Origin: a virus
Strand: one strand, 5' to 3'
Virus record (IMG/VR): IMGVR_UViG_3300030117_006290
Coordinates: 1-37,362 of that record
Length of the DNA stretch: 37,362 nt
Shown here: positions 1 to 30,661 of the stretch, piece by piece
Layout of the letters: the number at the start of each line of letters is the position of its first letter
Numbering within the stretch: position 1 is the first letter of the stretch
Program-made: the position numbers and the translations under genes
Notes under the pieces: model-generated
Seen by the model: the letters and a program-made list of their open reading frames with translations, nothing else
What the model was told of the DNA's origin: nothing
Databases searched by the model: none

Positions 1-705
1 AAAAACCAGAGTAGCTTTACAATAACTGGATTTAAAAAAAATAATTCATACCAATATAGACAATACTCTCGTAACGACAATGACGGGCCACGAACCTACA
101 ATGTGGACGACAATAAAGTTCCTAGTGTAACAGCCATTTTATCTGCCACGCAGTCCGAAGAGAAAAGACAAGCCTTGAATAAGTGGAGAAATAGGATCGG
201 ACATCAAGAGGCTCAACGCATCACGACCCAGGCAGCTACGAGAGGAACTGAAATGCACTATGTTCTTGAACAGTATATGAATGGAGTTGGGTATTTAAAT
301 TTAAGTAAGAGCGGACATCTACCTAGGATGATGGCGCATACCATTGTTAATAACTTAGGTGATTTATCTGAAGTTTATGGAACTGAAGTAAGTTTAGCCT
401 ATGATGATCGTTGGGCAGGTTCAGCTGATCTAATTTGTCAGTACAAAGATAGACCCACCATTGGTGATTTTAAACAAAGCAATAAACCAAAAAGAAAAGA
501 ATGGATTGAAGATTATTTTTATCAAATAGGAGCGTACAGTTTAGCACATAAAAAACAATATGGTGATATTGAGCAAGGTGTTGTTCTTGTTTGCACTAAA
601 GATTTATATTTTCAAGAATTTTTTATGGACAAAAACATGCTAAAAAAGTATGAGGATCTATGGTTAGAGAGAGTTGATCATTATTTTAAAATAAACCCTG
701 TTTAA
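1..705 (+). CDS. PD-(D/E)XK exonuclease, RecB/Cas4-like (5' partial)
   Basis: Seen: the reading frame is open from base 1, so the gene runs in from the left. The GTG at 103 is not a convincing start because the upstream frame (ending RTYNV just before DDNKVPSVTAIL) keeps the usual lead-in of this family. The motif PSVTAIL is followed by EMHYVLEQY, then AGSADLIC and PTIGDFKQS. The last two give the D...D-x-K catalytic signature of PD-(D/E)XK nucleases, and the later YQIGAYSLA helix fits too. Known: phages use such nucleases as recombination or genome-degrading exonucleases. Inferred: with the downstream helicases and polymerase it belongs to replication/recombination. It converges on the leftward methylase gene, and the two 3' ends overlap by 20 bases. 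Confidence 0.8.
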   Translation, partial: KNQSSFTITGFKKNNSYQYRQYSRNDNDGPRTYNVDDNKVPSVTAILSATQSEEKRQALNKWRNRIGHQEAQRITTQAATRGTEMHYVLEQYMNGVGYLNLSKSGHLPRMMAHTIVNNLGDLSEVYGTEVSLAYDDRWAGSADLICQYKDRPTIGDFKQSNKPKRKEWIEDYFYQIGAYSLAHKKQYGDIEQGVVLVCTKDLYFQEFFMDKNMLKKYEDLWLERVDHYFKINPV

Positions 706-1141
706 CCTCTACTGTGCATATGGTGTCATTATGCTGACTTCCATGCGCAACTAATAATATACGACTAATCTCAAAGCTATATTTTTTTCCTATACCAGCG
801 CTGTTCCAACCAAAAGATATTACTTTGCCACCTGGTCTTATAATCCTACCTATCTCTTTTCTACATTTTGACCAATAGCTATTGTTCATTGAATGCTCTA
901 AAGATATACCATTAGAATGATACATCTCTTTAAGCTGACGTTGTGAGTAAGGTGGATCAAAAACACAATAATCCTCTGACAAATCAGGTATTGTTTTAAG
1001 GTAGTCTATTGCATCCTGCTCATATGGATAAGGAAAAGGATCTAAATAATCTTCTCCTATCTCATCTTGAATCAACTCTTTTATGGGTTTAATTGTAAAT
1101 GTTTTGTGTGAAGGCATGGCCCAAATTCTATCTATTCTCAT
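686..1141 (-). CDS. DPPY-motif DNA methylase-like protein
   Basis: This 151-aa protein has the N-terminal block RIWAMPSHKTFTIKPIKELI, the catalytic motif IV DPPY (residues 62-65), and a C-terminal block PGGKVISFGWNS...HNDTIC that is typical of phage adenine-specific (N6) methylases. The SAM-binding motif I looks wrong: relatives have DPFAG-type sequence followed by about 25 residues before the DA-x-DYL helix. Here DPFP is followed almost at once by YEQDAIDYLKT. The gene may therefore encode a reduced or inactive enzyme. It overlaps the end of the upstream SNF2 helicase gene by 4 bases (ATG/stop overlap), so the two are translationally coupled and transcribed leftward from the promoter near 2600. 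Known family role: modification of phage DNA, often against host restriction. Confidence 0.7.
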   Translation of the reverse strand: MRIDRIWAMPSHKTFTIKPIKELIQDEIGEDYLDPFPYPYEQDAIDYLKTIPDLSEDYCVFDPPYSQRQLKEMYHSNGISLEHSMNNSYWSKCRKEIGRIIRPGGKVISFGWNSAGIGKKYSFEISRILLVAHGSQHNDTICTVEVKQGLF

Positions 1142-11746: not shown

Positions 11747-11857
11747 GGTGTGGGATCATTTTTTAATCAACTCTGAATGAAAAAAGTACGCTGATCTTGC
11801 ACCTTGTTGATTATATTAAGTTATTCAAGTAGCTTAGTAGTAGGGGAGGAGAGTTCT

Positions 11858-12490
11858 ATGGTTAGGAGAACCTCAAAAGATCTTACTATTTTGATTACTG
11901 AAACATTTTTAAAAAATTGGCAACCTGATTTTCTTAAAGTGAAATACGTTTATGTGCGCGATGCTTTGGTTAAAAATTTACTGGTATCGGCGTCTAAGAA
12001 AGGCACACATAGTTTTGTATTTGATTATGGTTATAATGGGGTACACAAGTCAAAAGTCATAGGTTATTGGCCTATCATGACAATTCAAGAAGCACGAACC
12101 AGAGTGCAGGAGTGTGATGTTTTAGTGAAAGAAGGTAAAACTTACGATGATCTGTTTGAGATAGAAAGAACACCGGCAACCATATATTTTTTAGAAAATG
12201 AACAAGGGTACATAAAGATTGGTAGGAGCAAGGAATGGGTACATCGGATCAAGGACCAAGTGCTATCGGTTAAAGGGGTACGGCTCATTGGAGTACGACC
12301 AGAAACAAAAGAGATTACCGAAACAAAGCTACACAACTTGTATGCACAATACAGACAGCCAAATACAGAATATTTTGATGACAAAAAAGGATTAATAAAA
12401 CAATTGATAACTCAAGCAATTGTATATAATGTAAGTGATGAACAGTTAACTAAAATGATGAAAAGACAAAAAGTTATAATTTACACGTAA
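11858..12490 (+). CDS. Integrase arm-binding (DUF4102-like) domain fused to GIY-YIG/T5orf172 domain
   Basis: About 210 aa. The ATG at 11858 is preceded by GGGGAGGAG, whereas the longer frame starting at 11804 has no ribosome site. Residues 28-93 (YVYVRDALVKNLLVSASKKG, HSFVFDYGYNG, IGYWPIMTIQEARTRV) match the N-terminal arm-site DNA-binding domain of P4-type tyrosine integrases. Residues 107-180 (ATIYFLENEQGYIKIGRS, R130, E155, then a QYRQPNTEYFDD end) match the T5orf172/MUG113 branch of GIY-YIG nucleases. No R-H-R-Y recombinase catalytic domain is present. Inferred: an integrase fragment recombined with a nuclease, perhaps a site-specific endonuclease or homing-type protein. It sits just before the packaging genes. 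Confidence 0.7.
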   Translation: MVRRTSKDLTILITETFLKNWQPDFLKVKYVYVRDALVKNLLVSASKKGTHSFVFDYGYNGVHKSKVIGYWPIMTIQEARTRVQECDVLVKEGKTYDDLFEIERTPATIYFLENEQGYIKIGRSKEWVHRIKDQVLSVKGVRLIGVRPETKEITETKLHNLYAQYRQPNTEYFDDKKGLIKQLITQAIVYNVSDEQLTKMMKRQKVIIYT

Positions 12491-17142: not shown

Positions 17143-17309
17143 ATTAGATAGGCTATTAATTTACAAGGCTCAATTGGCATCTCAAAACCAAAATTTCTTT
17201 TTTTGACTCACGCCACGCAGCAGCCGTGACTTGCACCCAGCCGCACTATAAATCCTATTTCATAGATGTAGTTACTAGCAAAAAGTCTAGATGTGGTTAT
17301 AATTGTTTT

Positions 17310-18785
17310 ATGCAAACCGACTTAATGACGACAGAACAGATGAGGCTCGAGGTAGAAAAGCTTTGGATACAACATGTAAAGCTTTGCCAAGATAATTTTT
17401 TAGCTTTTGTGCAAGAAGTCTGGCCGGATTTTATTTGTAGAAAATCAAAAGCCATGAGTGAGTGGGGTCATCATCAGATCATTGCTAAAGAATTTACCGA
17501 TATAGCTGACCAAAGAAAAGGGAGGCTCATTATCAATATGCCTCCTAGACATACCAAATCAGAGTTTGCTTCTGTTTACTACCCTGCTTGGATTATTGGT
17601 AAGTATCCAAAATTAAAAATTATGCAGGTGTCACATAACACGGAGCTTGCAGCACGGTTCGGAGCTAAAGTTCGTAACATTATTGACTCACCAGAGTACA
17701 AACAAATATTTGGTGATGTAAAACTGCGTGAGGATTCTAAAGCCAAAGGTAGATGGGAAACCAATCAAGGCGGTGAATACTACGCTGCTGGTGTTGGTTC
17801 GTCCATCACGGGCCGTGGTGCGGACTTACTGATTATTGATGACCCTCATACAGAACAAGATTCTATGTCAGACACTGCCATGGAGCGTGCGTACGAGTGG
17901 TACACCTCGGGTCCTCGTCAGCGTTTGCAGCCTGGGGGTTCGATTCTGGTGGTCATGACTCGATGGGCCGAGGATGATTTGACCGGTAGACTCTTAAGAG
18001 CACAGACTGAACCTAAAGCTGACACATGGAAACAAGTATCTTTTCCAGCGATCCTCGACTCAGGGAACCCAGTGTGGCCAGAGTATTGGGACTTAGAAGA
18101 GCTAGAAAAAATTAAAGCCTCTATTCCAATTCGTAACTGGTCGGCACAGTACATGCAAGAACCAACGTCAGAAGAAGGTGCGATCATCAAACGTGAGTGG
18201 TGGCAACCTTGGGAAGAAGAAGGTTTACCAATGTTGCAGCACGTCATTCAAAGTTATGATACCGCGTTTTCGAAAAAAGAAACGGCGGACTACAGTGCCA
18301 TTACCACTTGGGGTATATTTTTTCCAGAAGAAGGCGGAGCACCCAATATTATTTTACTGGATGCCTTGCGCGGAAAATTTGACTTTCCGGAGCTTAAAGC
18401 TGTGGCTCTCGACGCACAGAAATATTGGGAACCAGAAACGATCATTGTAGAACAAAAAGCGTCCGGCGAACCACTGACCCAAGAGTTCAGACGGATGGGT
18501 ATTCCGGTGGTCCCATTCACGCCAACCAGAGGTAACGACAAACACACTCGCGTAAACTCAGTGGCCCCTATCTTTGAAAGTGGGTCCGTGTGGTATCCGT
18601 ATGGTGAAAAGTTTGCGGAAGATGTGATTGATGAATGTGCCGCATTTCCGCATGGTTCCAACGATGACTACGTAGATTCAATGAGTCAAGCCATACTAAG
18701 GTATCGTCAAGGCAACTTTGTTGAGTTATACTCGGATTATAAAGACACAGATGATTTACCAGAAAAAACATATAAGTATTACTGA
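17310..18785 (+). CDS. terL: Terminase large subunit
   Basis: About 491 aa from ATG 17310; the GTG at 17226 and the ATG at 17325 are alternatives, and none has a strong ribosome site. The ATPase domain has Walker A MPPRHTKS (77-84), Walker B LLIIDDP (173-179) and the coupling region VVMTRWAEDDLTGR. The C-terminal RNase H-like nuclease has SYDTAFSKKE (D317), IIVEQKASGEPL and HGSNDDYVDSMSQAI, giving the acidic triad. Known: it cuts concatemeric DNA and pumps it into the procapsid. It is followed closely by the 757-aa protein and portal. It is separated from terS by about 4.1 kb. Confidence 0.93.
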   Translation: MQTDLMTTEQMRLEVEKLWIQHVKLCQDNFLAFVQEVWPDFICRKSKAMSEWGHHQIIAKEFTDIADQRKGRLIINMPPRHTKSEFASVYYPAWIIGKYPKLKIMQVSHNTELAARFGAKVRNIIDSPEYKQIFGDVKLREDSKAKGRWETNQGGEYYAAGVGSSITGRGADLLIIDDPHTEQDSMSDTAMERAYEWYTSGPRQRLQPGGSILVVMTRWAEDDLTGRLLRAQTEPKADTWKQVSFPAILDSGNPVWPEYWDLEELEKIKASIPIRNWSAQYMQEPTSEEGAIIKREWWQPWEEEGLPMLQHVIQSYDTAFSKKETADYSAITTWGIFFPEEGGAPNIILLDALRGKFDFPELKAVALDAQKYWEPETIIVEQKASGEPLTQEFRRMGIPVVPFTPTRGNDKHTRVNSVAPIFESGSVWYPYGEKFAEDVIDECAAFPHGSNDDYVDSMSQAILRYRQGNFVELYSDYKDTDDLPEKTYKYY

Positions 18786-18790
18786 TAGTT

Positions 18791-21064
18791 ATGGCCGAAC
18801 AACAAAAGACAGCAGCTGAAGAAAGAAGTGAAGCGTTATCTACGCTTGGCGTTGGTGGAGGTATTCTGACCGCTCTTTTGGCAAGAAAACCCATTTTTCG
18901 TACAGGTAAAAAAGTAATCAAAGGTATTCGAGGTCTTATGGATTCGGGCAAAAAAGCCACGGATGACATCTCCGATGTTACTGACCAAAGCATGGTCTCT
19001 GCACCTTCAAAAAATATAGCCGACGATATGGCTGCTTATGAATCGTTAACAAAACAACAAGCAGCAGCAAGAAAATTAAAAGATGCAGATATTCAGTTTG
19101 TAGAAGAGGCTCAAAAAAGAGTTAAAGAAAATCCGTTAACTTTAGCAGGACGTAATTTAAGTGAACGAGCGGATGAAAGTGTACATGGCTCGGCTCTGTT
19201 TGATTACATTGCAACCTTTCCAGGCATGGGTAGAAAAAAAGGTTATGTTGCCTCAGCTGATGCGTGGGCAAGTTATTTTAAAAAACCTTCACAACAAAAA
19301 GTAGGCAATATTAAATTAGAAATCACTCGTGATGAATTGTTTGATACCAACATCGCTAAATTTGACAAAGATGGTAATTTAACTGGTGGCTATTTAAAAT
19401 TAGCAAAAGACGAAAATGTGCCAGTTTCAGCAAGAACTTTATTAGAAATGGTTGCCAGAAACCCAGCCAACAACACAGGTGTAATAAAAATAGGAAATTC
19501 TGCAACCCCTCAACTGCAACCGGTGGTCGATGACTTTATAGATACCTTTGAAAATTCATACGCTAGAGTTATGAGCCATGTGAAAAAAACAGCTGGAGAA
19601 GACAGTTCTTTTTTTAAAACTTTACAAGGAAATATAGATGATCACTTTGAAGTTTGGATGAATTTTCAGGGTAGGAATTATGGTACTTACCTTCAACCTA
19701 ATACTCAAGCCGATAGAAATTTTATACAAACGTATCGAAAAATGATGAAAACAATACAAGATAATAAACAAGCATTAGAAGAAACAGGTTTTATGGTAGA
19801 CGATGTTTTAAAACCATTAAATAATAAATTTAAAAAATTTGAAAATGTAGTTGCAAATAGTGGTAAACCCTTACAAAGAGACCAGAACGCATATTACAGC
19901 TCAACAAACGATGCGTACAGACAATATGGCAGTGAAACGTACGATAACGACATAGTTTTTTTTAAAGTGTCAGACCCTGACGCCAGTATATTTGGTAGGG
20001 GGTTTAGGCAGCCATCTCATCATTACACAAGTGAAGTGCCAAATGCTTTGTATCACATAAGATATGGTAGACGAACTGTGCAAAAAAGTGATGAATTGAG
20101 TGGTACAGCTGATCAAGAAAAAATATATGTTGTGGATGAACTACAATCAGATGTGCATCAAAAAATGAGAAAAGAATTACTTGATTCAGGAGTGTTTGAT
20201 GGAAAACCTGAAAACAGACTAAACCCAATTAACGCTAATTTTTTAAATGCGTTATTTAGAGATAGGCGTCTTGAAAAATTTAACGAAATTGAAGATCTTT
20301 TAAATACTCAAGTTACGACAAAAGGTAGGCTTTCAAAAGAAGCTCAAGATAAATATAAAAAATTAAGCGCAGAATTTAAGTCTATAGATGAAGCTCAAAC
20401 AAGTGAAGCTTTAGGTAAAAATTCCTTGCAAGTCATGCAGGAAATTTATAGAAAAAATGATGTTGATTTTATGCCGTTATTTAATGATCAAAGGGGCTGG
20501 GGTGCTCATGCGTTAAAACTCATGGTAAAAAGAGCATCAAATGACGGAGTTGATTACATCGGAATTAGTCCTGCAGAAATGGTTTCTTTGAAAAAAGCAA
20601 CACGCAAAATTAAAAACTTACGTTTTTATGGAAACGCTCGTGGCACCGCAGGTTATCGAAACTATACCTTAAATGACCAATTAACCAATCCAAAACAAAC
20701 TGCAGAATTACCTCAAATCTTAAAAGATTTAGCAAAACAATATAATAGTGAAGCTAAAACTATTATGGTTTCTAAATCAGATCCAAAAAAACCATTTAAA
20801 GTATTTAGAGAAACAGACATTTTTGATGCTGGAGAGGAAATATTTACCTACACTAAAACAGAACACATGGGGGCGTTTAAAACACAAATTGAAGCTGAAA
20901 AATTTGCAAGTAGGGTGGGGGGCGGTATAAAAGAAATGTCTGCTGACGATCCAGACCTATATTATCCAGTATTTGCTTTAAAAATTACTCCCGAAATGGC
21001 AAAACTACCGCAAAAACTCTATAAGAGTAAAGGTGGTCTAGTAGTTAATATATTTAAATGGTAA
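18791..21064 (+). CDS. Large ELQSD-domain protein, probable ejected/internal virion protein
   Basis: This 757-aa protein has an N-terminal hydrophobic glycine-rich stretch (LGVGGGILTALLA), then a long polar helical region. Its middle domain contains LYHIRYGRR, IYVVDELQSDVHQ (ELQSD at about 450-454), NFLNALFRD and WGAHALKLMVKRASNDGVDYIGI. This ELQSD block occurs in large polyvalent phage proteins thought to be co-injected with DNA. The C-terminal YYPVFALKITPEMAKLPQKL is typical of the same architecture. Its position between terL and portal is unusual. A virion or ejection role is inferred; no enzymatic motif was proven. Confidence 0.6.
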   Translation: MAEQQKTAAEERSEALSTLGVGGGILTALLARKPIFRTGKKVIKGIRGLMDSGKKATDDISDVTDQSMVSAPSKNIADDMAAYESLTKQQAAARKLKDADIQFVEEAQKRVKENPLTLAGRNLSERADESVHGSALFDYIATFPGMGRKKGYVASADAWASYFKKPSQQKVGNIKLEITRDELFDTNIAKFDKDGNLTGGYLKLAKDENVPVSARTLLEMVARNPANNTGVIKIGNSATPQLQPVVDDFIDTFENSYARVMSHVKKTAGEDSSFFKTLQGNIDDHFEVWMNFQGRNYGTYLQPNTQADRNFIQTYRKMMKTIQDNKQALEETGFMVDDVLKPLNNKFKKFENVVANSGKPLQRDQNAYYSSTNDAYRQYGSETYDNDIVFFKVSDPDASIFGRGFRQPSHHYTSEVPNALYHIRYGRRTVQKSDELSGTADQEKIYVVDELQSDVHQKMRKELLDSGVFDGKPENRLNPINANFLNALFRDRRLEKFNEIEDLLNTQVTTKGRLSKEAQDKYKKLSAEFKSIDEAQTSEALGKNSLQVMQEIYRKNDVDFMPLFNDQRGWGAHALKLMVKRASNDGVDYIGISPAEMVSLKKATRKIKNLRFYGNARGTAGYRNYTLNDQLTNPKQTAELPQILKDLAKQYNSEAKTIMVSKSDPKKPFKVFRETDIFDAGEEIFTYTKTEHMGAFKTQIEAEKFASRVGGGIKEMSADDPDLYYPVFALKITPEMAKLPQKLYKSKGGLVVNIFKW

Positions 21065-28484: not shown

Positions 28485-29396
28485 ATGGCTATTTCAAGAG
28501 CACAATTGGTCAAAGAGCTAGAGCCTGGTTTGAACGCTCTCTTTGGCTTAGAGTACAACCGTTATGAAAACGAACATGCGGAAATTTTTACTTCGGAAGG
28601 TTCTGATAGAGCTTTTGAAGAAGAAGTGATGTTGTCCGGTTTCGGATCGGCTCCTGTGAAAAGTGAGGGTGCAGGCGTACAATTTGACGATGCGCAAGAA
28701 TCTTACACAGCGAGATACACACATGAGACTATCGCAATGGCTTTTGCTATTACAGAGGAAGCAATTGAAGATAACTTATATGATAGGCTAGCAGGCCGTT
28801 ACACAAGAGCATTAGCACGTTCTATGGCTAACACTAAACAAGTGAAAGCTGCAAACGTTCTTAACAATGCTTTTAACAGTAGCTTCACTGGTGGTGATGG
28901 AAAAGAGCTTTGTGCTACAGACCATCCACTAACTGTTGGAGGTACTTTCCGTAACGAGCTTTCAACTGCTTCAGACTTATCTGAAACATCACTAGAGCAG
29001 TCAATGATTGACATTGCTGCATTTGTTGATGAAAGGGGGTTAAAAGTCTCTTTACAAGGTGTTAAGTTAATTATTCCTAAGGAACTTCAGTTCACAGCGG
29101 AAAGAATACTTAGATCACCACAACGTGTTGGTACATCAGATAATGACATTAATGCTATGGCTTCAATGGGTATGATCCCTCAAGGTTATAGAGTTAACCA
29201 TTATCTAACTGACACAGATGCTTTCTTCATTATGACTGATGCACCTAATGGACTAAAACAGTTCGTTAGAGCACCAATCAAAACTGCTATGGAAGGTGAC
29301 TTCGATACTGGTAACGTGAGGTTTAAAGCAAGAGAAAGATATTCATTTGGATTCTCGGATTCAAGAGGAATATTTGGTTCGCCTGGGGCTGCGTAA
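28485..29396 (+). CDS. Major capsid protein, Mu gpT-like
   Basis: 303 aa. Features of the Mu gpT/HK97-fold group: LVKELEPGLNALFGLEYNRY at the N-terminus (E-loop area), SYTARYTHETIAMAFAITEE, ALARSMANTKQVKAANVLNN, HPLTVGGTFRNELS, and the C-terminal core TDAPNGLKQFVRAPI and RYSFGFSDSRGIFGS. Strong AAGGAGG ribosome site 6-7 nt upstream, which suits a very abundant protein. A strong terminator follows 22 bases after the stop. Known: it builds the icosahedral shell. Confidence 0.9.
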   Translation: MAISRAQLVKELEPGLNALFGLEYNRYENEHAEIFTSEGSDRAFEEEVMLSGFGSAPVKSEGAGVQFDDAQESYTARYTHETIAMAFAITEEAIEDNLYDRLAGRYTRALARSMANTKQVKAANVLNNAFNSSFTGGDGKELCATDHPLTVGGTFRNELSTASDLSETSLEQSMIDIAAFVDERGLKVSLQGVKLIIPKELQFTAERILRSPQRVGTSDNDINAMASMGMIPQGYRVNHYLTDTDAFFIMTDAPNGLKQFVRAPIKTAMEGDFDTGNVRFKARERYSFGFSDSRGIFGSPGAA

Positions 29397-30164: not shown

Positions 30165-30172
30165 TATAATAG

Positions 30173-30196
30173 GTGCCTCTTCGGAGGCACTTTTTT
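30173..30196 (+). terminator. Rho-independent terminator
   Basis: GTGCCTC (30173-30179) and GAGGCAC (30184-30190) form a 7-bp stem capped by TTCG, an unusually stable tetraloop, followed by six T. The last T is also the first base of the parS-like palindrome. Confidence 0.92.
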
Positions 30197-30211
30197 GTTC
30201 CACGTGGAACA
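30196..30211. promoter_or_regulatory. Perfect parS-like site
   Basis: TGTTCCACGTGGAACA is a perfect 16-bp palindrome and matches the chromosomal ParB binding site consensus (TGTTnCACGTGnAACA). It lies between a terminator and the next gene, so it is not coding. No ParA or ParB gene is visible in the window. Other CACGTG occurrences (7320, 27345) lack the flanks. Confidence 0.8.
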
Positions 30212-30238
30212 TTTGTTTCTTAATTAAGGAGGGAAACC

Positions 30239-30661
30239 ATGGCAGATACAGTAACAGGACCTACAATCTTACAAGAAAACGATAAGAGAGTAGTAATTAA
30301 AATCGTAAACGAATCAGATGGCACAGGCGGTACAACAGTTTTTGCTGATGTATCAGCTCTTGCCGCTAACGCAAACGGGCAATCAGTAACCACAGTAAGT
30401 CCACAAAGAATATGGTGGTCATGTGCTAATGGTGATGGTGGCGACTCATTTGCAAGATTAGACTTTGAAGACTCAGATGGTGATATACCAATCGTAACAT
30501 TGGTAGATTCAGGTTACTGGGACTTTAGAGAGTTTGGTGGTATTCCAGCAAACACCTCATCCAACTCTAATCAAAGCGATGTCAACTTTGTTGTTCCAGG
30601 TGCAGCGGATTCTGGTAATACGTACACAGTGATTGCAGAATTTATTAAAAATTACGATTAA
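30239..30661 (+). CDS. Virion structural-region protein, 140 aa
   Basis: Beta-rich small protein (KRVVIKIVNESDGTGGTTVF, RIWWSCANGDGGDSFARLDF, SGYWDFREFGGIPANT, DSGNTYTVIAEFIKNYD). Similar proteins occur between capsid and tail genes of marine phages, probably as minor head or tail components. Ribosome site GGAGG lies 5-6 bases before ATG. The last bases of its stop are followed by the next gene within 3 bases. Confidence 0.65.
   Translation: MADTVTGPTILQENDKRVVIKIVNESDGTGGTTVFADVSALAANANGQSVTTVSPQRIWWSCANGDGGDSFARLDFEDSDGDIPIVTLVDSGYWDFREFGGIPANTSSNSNQSDVNFVVPGAADSGNTYTVIAEFIKNYD

Follow-up and report, generated by a model that had tools for sequence, protein, structure and literature searches.

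A conserved orphan parS site in an aquatic podovirus family, a candidate borrowed centromere

Introduction

ParB-parS partition systems are among the most conserved in bacteria. ParB dimers act as CTP-dependent clamps that load at parS, slide onto the flanking DNA, and engage both ParA and the SMC complex. The locus described here raises the question of what such a site is doing in a phage genome in which no partition genes are seen. It lies in the viral record IMGVR_UViG_3300030117_006290, whose complete sequence of 37,362 bases is referred to below as the window. A first-pass annotation of the window, made from the sequence alone, drew attention to a palindrome at positions 30,196 to 30,211 and proposed that the phage may recruit ParB from its host, either for segregation or genome positioning or as a decoy.

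Results

Phage type. The major capsid protein of the window is 78% identical to those of both the Pelagibacter phage HTVC023P and Phage DSL-LC04 and 72% identical to that of HTVC027P. The capsid, portal, terminase large subunit (terL), and DNA polymerase genes are all homologous to those of HTVC023P and follow the same order. Since the HTVC023P genome measures 60.9 kb, the window is, by homology, a fragment of a ∼58- to 61-kb HTVC023P-type podovirus genome, and the virus is a marine virus akin to phages of SAR11 bacteria. The cultivated relatives are lytic by description. Separately, the protein encoded at 11,804 to 12,487 weakly matches an integrase arm DNA-binding domain and a MUG113/GIY-YIG-like domain and has no integrase catalytic domain.

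The parS site and its setting. The features to which the text refers are as follows.

17,226 to 18,785, plus strand: terminase large subunit gene (terL), which parS adjoins in many wider relatives
28,485 to 29,396, plus strand: major capsid protein gene, the marker of phage type
29,538 to 30,164, plus strand: 208-aa gene 5' of parS, a swappable cassette
30,171 to 30,195, plus strand: TTCG-capped intrinsic terminator (9-bp stem at 30,171 to 30,192, then a T run), abutting parS
30,196 to 30,211, no strand: parS, TGTTCCACGTGGAACA, a perfect 16-bp palindrome, with counterparts at this position in 8 further contigs
30,212 to 30,238, plus strand: conserved leader and Shine-Dalgarno sequence (TTTGTTTCTTAATTAAGGAGGGAAACC) of the next gene, almost invariant across ∼77 related loci
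30,239 to 30,661, plus strand: 140-aa open reading frame 3' of parS, just past the capsid region

The palindrome matches the parS consensus TGTTNCACGTGNAACA with 0 mismatches, and the window holds no second match to the 16-mer even when 2 mismatches are allowed. Under zero-order composition, 1.3e-4 matches to TGTTNCACGTGNAACA and 4.5e-6 exact copies of the 16-mer would be expected in the window. TGTTCCACGTGGAACA is also the longest perfect palindrome present, the runner-up spanning 14 bp. The site is intergenic, falling after the stop codon of the 208-aa open reading frame (ORF) and ahead of the Shine-Dalgarno sequence and ATG (30,239) of the 140-aa ORF; it stands directly 3' of the TTCG hairpin terminator, with the purine-rich Shine-Dalgarno sequence ∼15 bases further on. 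The annotation was therefore accurate in describing a perfect parS palindrome in a noncoding gap, and its judgment that a chance match is very unlikely agrees with an expectation of ∼1e-4. PHROG and Pfam searches with the 140-aa gene returned no match, and in some parS-positive relatives the slot of the 208-aa gene is occupied by a different, unrelated-looking gene.

Copies in the same gap of close relatives. A comparison of this gap across ∼77 loci that surround the 140-aa gene showed that the hairpin and the leader TTTCTTNATTAAGGAGGG are retained almost everywhere, and 5 of the loci carry parS between them. The annotation had suggested looking for the motif at the same locus in relatives; when all viral contigs were searched by pattern, parS turned up in the same gap in 8 contigs from 8 data sets besides the window, so the site is by no means absent from its relatives. 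In these phages, parS has the form of an ∼18- to 20-bp insertion: the nearest parS-free sisters (L005, L007, and L008) read GAGGCACTTTGTTTC in the gap, and parS-bearing gaps read GAGGCACTTT-TGTTCCACGTGGAACATT-GTTTC, for a minimal insertion of 18 bp. A second pattern that made no mention of parS, accepting any 10 to 38 bp from hairpin to leader and demanding the 3' arm of this hairpin, returned the same 8 contigs and nothing else; the invariance of parS is therefore no artefact of retrieval.

Conservation is concentrated on the site itself. The T/A tracts flanking parS vary among carriers, and within the adjacent 140-aa gene 30 of 60 fourfold-degenerate sites (∼50%) differ between the two main groups, whereas the fixed positions of parS are all identical. 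Were parS drifting at the fourfold-site rate, 14 unchanged positions would have a probability of ∼6e-5, an estimate that exchange between phages would weaken. The sole variant, in L212, reads TGTTTCACGTGAAACA; there the paired free positions have changed from C..G to T..A, which the parS consensus permits and which yields a site that is still perfect and is the exact form of SAR11 chromosomes. Across the nine sites, window included, variation is thus confined to the free positions. In the gene tree, parS carriers fall within one subclade and are interspersed with noncarriers, a patchiness from which it follows that gain and then loss, or phage-phage exchange, has occurred; the segment could owe its spread, and part of its apparent conservation, to recombination. 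Many close relatives have no parS at all, so the site is dispensable.

The annotation had also singled out the coupling of parS to the terminator, which does not hold up as a general rule. Sister loci possess the terminator both with and without parS, and where wider relatives carry parS next to terL or portal, this terminator is missing. A coupled terminator-parS device was accordingly rejected.

parS in the wider family and in other viral contigs. An untargeted scan of viral contigs gave at least 120 matches to TGTTNCACGTGNAACA, compared with 34 for the reversed motif in the whole collection. In the 80 loci listed, 90 of 94 sites have a pyrimidine..purine combination at the two free positions (25% by chance), and nearly all of these sites are therefore real parS. 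Kin of the window phage, recognized by terL, portal, or capsid genes, account for 15 of the 80 listed parS loci versus 0 of 34 reversed-motif loci (Fisher P = 0.005). ParB_N was found in 3 of 50 scanned parS records (2 above the cutoff), many of which are fragments and some of which could contain host DNA. As a side observation, parS is common in diverse viral contigs (L082 to L161), often in intergenic positions and mostly with no detectable ParB in the record, and clusters of 2 to 5 sites are present in L096, L112, L113, and L160.

For the wider family, in which terL, portal, and major capsid proteins are 40 to 75% identical, 80 terL homologues were gathered regardless of parS, leaving 76 after loci known from the scan had been dropped. 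Exact parS is present in 9 of these 76 loci, whereas 419 permuted palindromes of the same composition averaged 0.002 and never exceeded 1; the terL queries were mostly parS-positive phages, the sample includes near-relatives, and independent events number fewer than 9, as some loci are near-relatives of scan loci (L441/L125 and L442/L103). Within the head and packaging module, the positions differ from phage to phage: 35 to 150 bp upstream of terL, in a gene between terL and portal, after portal, or after the capsid gene. Several of these sites fall inside genes. Among 15 named genomes checked, the Alcaligenes phage QDWS535 carries exact parS at 47,934, upstream of terL in a 1.3-kb stretch with poor annotation, and two phages, HTVC027P of Pelagibacter and CRP-810 of Roseobacter, carry parS with one outer-base mismatch. 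The latter two could be coincidences, because the HTVC027P site falls in what looks like an unannotated reading frame and the CRP-810 site within a large gene.

Shortly 5' of the terL start, a GGGGCCCC/GGGNCCC element is conserved in the wider family, for example in L424, L425, L427, L431, L433, and L455. The idea that parS marks this element was discarded, since the element precedes terL with or without parS, and their proximity is probably incidental.

Search for a phage-encoded reader. The window, at 37 kb of a ∼58- to 61-kb genome, is too short to settle by itself whether the phage has partition genes. Two parS-positive records, G001 and G016, are near complete (58.7 and 58.0 kb). No match to ParB_N was detected in parS-positive relatives, these two included; none to HTH_ParB in the window or in relatives, with G000, G001, and G016 covered; none to the ParA-type family AAA_31 (PF13614) in 13 records comprising the window and relatives; and none to tyrosine integrases (PF00589) in 11 records. 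Control genomes were positive in every case. ParB_N is likewise absent from 9 wider-family parS-bearing terL records. The lineage therefore shows neither the ParB nor the ParA ATPase of a ParABS system, and neither the tyrosine integrase nor the partition genes of its own that would mark a phage-plasmid or temperate phage. On the strength of the near-complete relatives, the window parS is, as far as these models reach, an orphan with no phage-encoded reader, and the annotation's remark that no partition genes are visible extends to genomes of nearly full length.

Two further observations concern individual genes. Among 37 relatives, the only ParB_N match is a subthreshold one at 19,894 to 20,040 (minus strand) of G036, within L377/L378 and in a 304-aa frame; G036 is parS negative. 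At 686 to 1,141 (minus strand) of the window, a small gene with a DPPYS motif and no Pfam match resembles DNA adenine methyltransferases. It was found in parS-positive G000, G001, and G016, whereas comparison with parS-negative records did not turn it up. In a search for phage genes that track with parS, this possible methyltransferase gene was the sole candidate, and the genomes are too few for interpretation.

Host parS sites. In SAR11 genomes the recognizable site is mostly single; it reads TGTTTCACGTGAAACA or departs from this by one base, and it lies where rsmG begins in an mnmG-rsmG-parA locus (gene names assigned from translations). SAR11 chromosomes also contain CGTTTCACGTGAAACA, the variant seen in HTVC027P. 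Among 115 alphaproteobacterial genomes, the C..G form of the window was detected in 1; it is the type of Pseudomonas aeruginosa and Myxococcus (PMC7022226). Because this form is rare in Alphaproteobacteria while SAR11 uses T..A, the host of the window phage is left between two readings: either it lies outside SAR11, or its ParB disregards the two free positions, as the consensus implies.

Discussion

Recruitment of host ParB. We infer, at a probability of roughly 0.7, that this parS recruits host ParB, with the identity of the host, the binding, and the benefit all belonging to that inference. It builds on established ParB biology and on two precedents. Lambda engineered with parS gains ParB foci during infection with replication and lysis unblocked (PMC13190303), and SGI1, which has parS-like sites only, both profits from and damages the partition system that it borrows (PMC10954446). 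As relatives carry parS at several different places in the genome, the phage family probably exploits the host's own chromosome-sorting protein. Upon infection or after phage replication, host chromosomal ParB would load on the phage parS as a CTP-dependent clamp and slide onto the adjoining phage DNA. Each phage genome would then become a ParB-covered body that could engage host ParA and SMC, and such genomes would compete with the host origin for ParB.

The benefit is most likely that the host segregation machinery holds, positions, or condenses replicating phage DNA, although withdrawal of ParB from the host origin ranks near-equal with positioning or condensation; late-gene control and segregation in a carrier state are less likely than either. 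The fuller proposal, in which a widespread aquatic podovirus family repeatedly evolved a single orphan chromosomal-type parS in its head and packaging module and host ParB clamps, together with ParA and SMC, organize or position the lytic DNA, is put forward tentatively, at somewhat short of even odds. The annotation's suggestion of host recruitment is thus strengthened by a conserved parS in a lineage without partition genes, but the lysogen or plasmid-prophage purpose attached to it finds no support.

Alternative explanations. The alternatives do not all exclude recruitment, because a decoy and effects on transcription both presuppose ParB binding. In the first, one site per genome, amplified by replication, would titrate a small host ParB pool, stop segregation, and free resources. 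With mostly one recognizable parS per SAR11 genome, a burst of phage genomes would outnumber the host site, and the parS-like sites of SGI1 do destabilize the plasmid whose ParB they bind (PMC10954446). A decoy would nevertheless be expected to carry several sites, whereas near-complete parS-positive records have exactly one, and a short lytic cycle has little obvious to gain from a segregation block; we regard this purpose as rather unlikely.

Local control of transcription, with ParB at parS acting as a roadblock or spreading over late genes and so tuning their expression, would suit sites that adjoin terL, portal, or the capsid region (often just upstream of terL) and a window site wedged between terminator and Shine-Dalgarno sequence. 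It is improbable all the same: no promoter-like site above chance was seen near the window parS, the intragenic sites fit it poorly, and reviews rate the effects of ParB on parS-near genes as limited (PMC7022226). Slightly more improbable is an extrachromosomal lysogen or carrier state riding on the host ParABS system, as SGI1 does on IncC, even though an orphan parS suffices to borrow a partition system (PMC10954446). The parS-positive records lack ParA, ParB, and tyrosine integrase, and the plasmid-like prophage that the annotation envisaged was dropped for the same reason. The lytic description of the cultivated relatives also speaks against a carrier state.

That the palindrome is instead a further RNA hairpin or terminator whose sequence resembles a ParB site by coincidence is disfavored and quite unlikely. 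Its 6-bp stem and 4-nt loop do score as terminator-like, and the paired change in L212 is compensatory; however, the CACGTG center is invariant even though part of it would be an unconstrained loop, changes are restricted to the free positions of parS, and wider relatives have exact parS, often within genes, rather than other palindromes of the same composition. Hardly more credible is a divergent ParB-like reader encoded by the phage and beyond the reach of the models: many ORFs do lack a family match, and mobile elements commonly encode orphan proteins of the ParB fold (PMC12704722), but neither ParB_N nor the parS-reading HTH_ParB model matched, and a scan of the ORFs for the ParB CTP-binding motif returned only an unrelated peptidase-like protein. 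Finally, a functionless chance palindrome or passively acquired host sequence, which patchy presence and the many parS-free relatives might suggest, is the least plausible of all, since chance is ruled out by the composition-based expectation together with recurrence at differing positions across the family, and the core has survived ∼50% fourfold-site divergence.

Comparison with known systems. Should host ParB bind, these phages would offer a natural test of ParB loading on a foreign replicon and might throw light on the placement of phage DNA inside the minimal SAR11 cell. The cultivated relatives QDWS535 and HTVC027P, with an exact site and one mismatch, respectively, make the system directly testable. 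In the open-access literature, we found no paper on lytic phages that use ParB-parS via an orphan site, and no direct phage-parS precedent.

The phage site shares its 16-bp sequence and symmetry with bacterial chromosomal parS (in mnmG-rsmG-parAB loci; P. aeruginosa TGTTCCACGtGGAACa [PMC7022226]) but differs in having no parA or parB, either linked or anywhere in near-complete relatives. A link between a phage, ParB, and parS is also known from P1, mycobacterial extrachromosomal prophages (PMC7157519), and Lacachita (ParB only; PMC10286716); those, however, are plasmid-prophages that encode ParA and/or ParB, and the window lineage encodes neither. In engineered lambda (CFP-ParB; PMC13190303), parS on infecting phage DNA gathers ParB much as is proposed here, although that site is artificial and its ParB supplied, unlike a natural phage site. 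The closest precedent is SGI1 with the IncC ParABS system (PMC10954446), in which a mobile element without partition genes mimics the parS of another replicon, and the phage lineage likewise carries such a mimic with no ParAB of its own. SGI1 is an integrative mobilizable element whose imitation of a plasmid centromere has been proven experimentally; in the phage family the site is of the chromosomal type and is known from sequence, and its conservation and recurrence make this orphan parS a candidate borrowed centromere.
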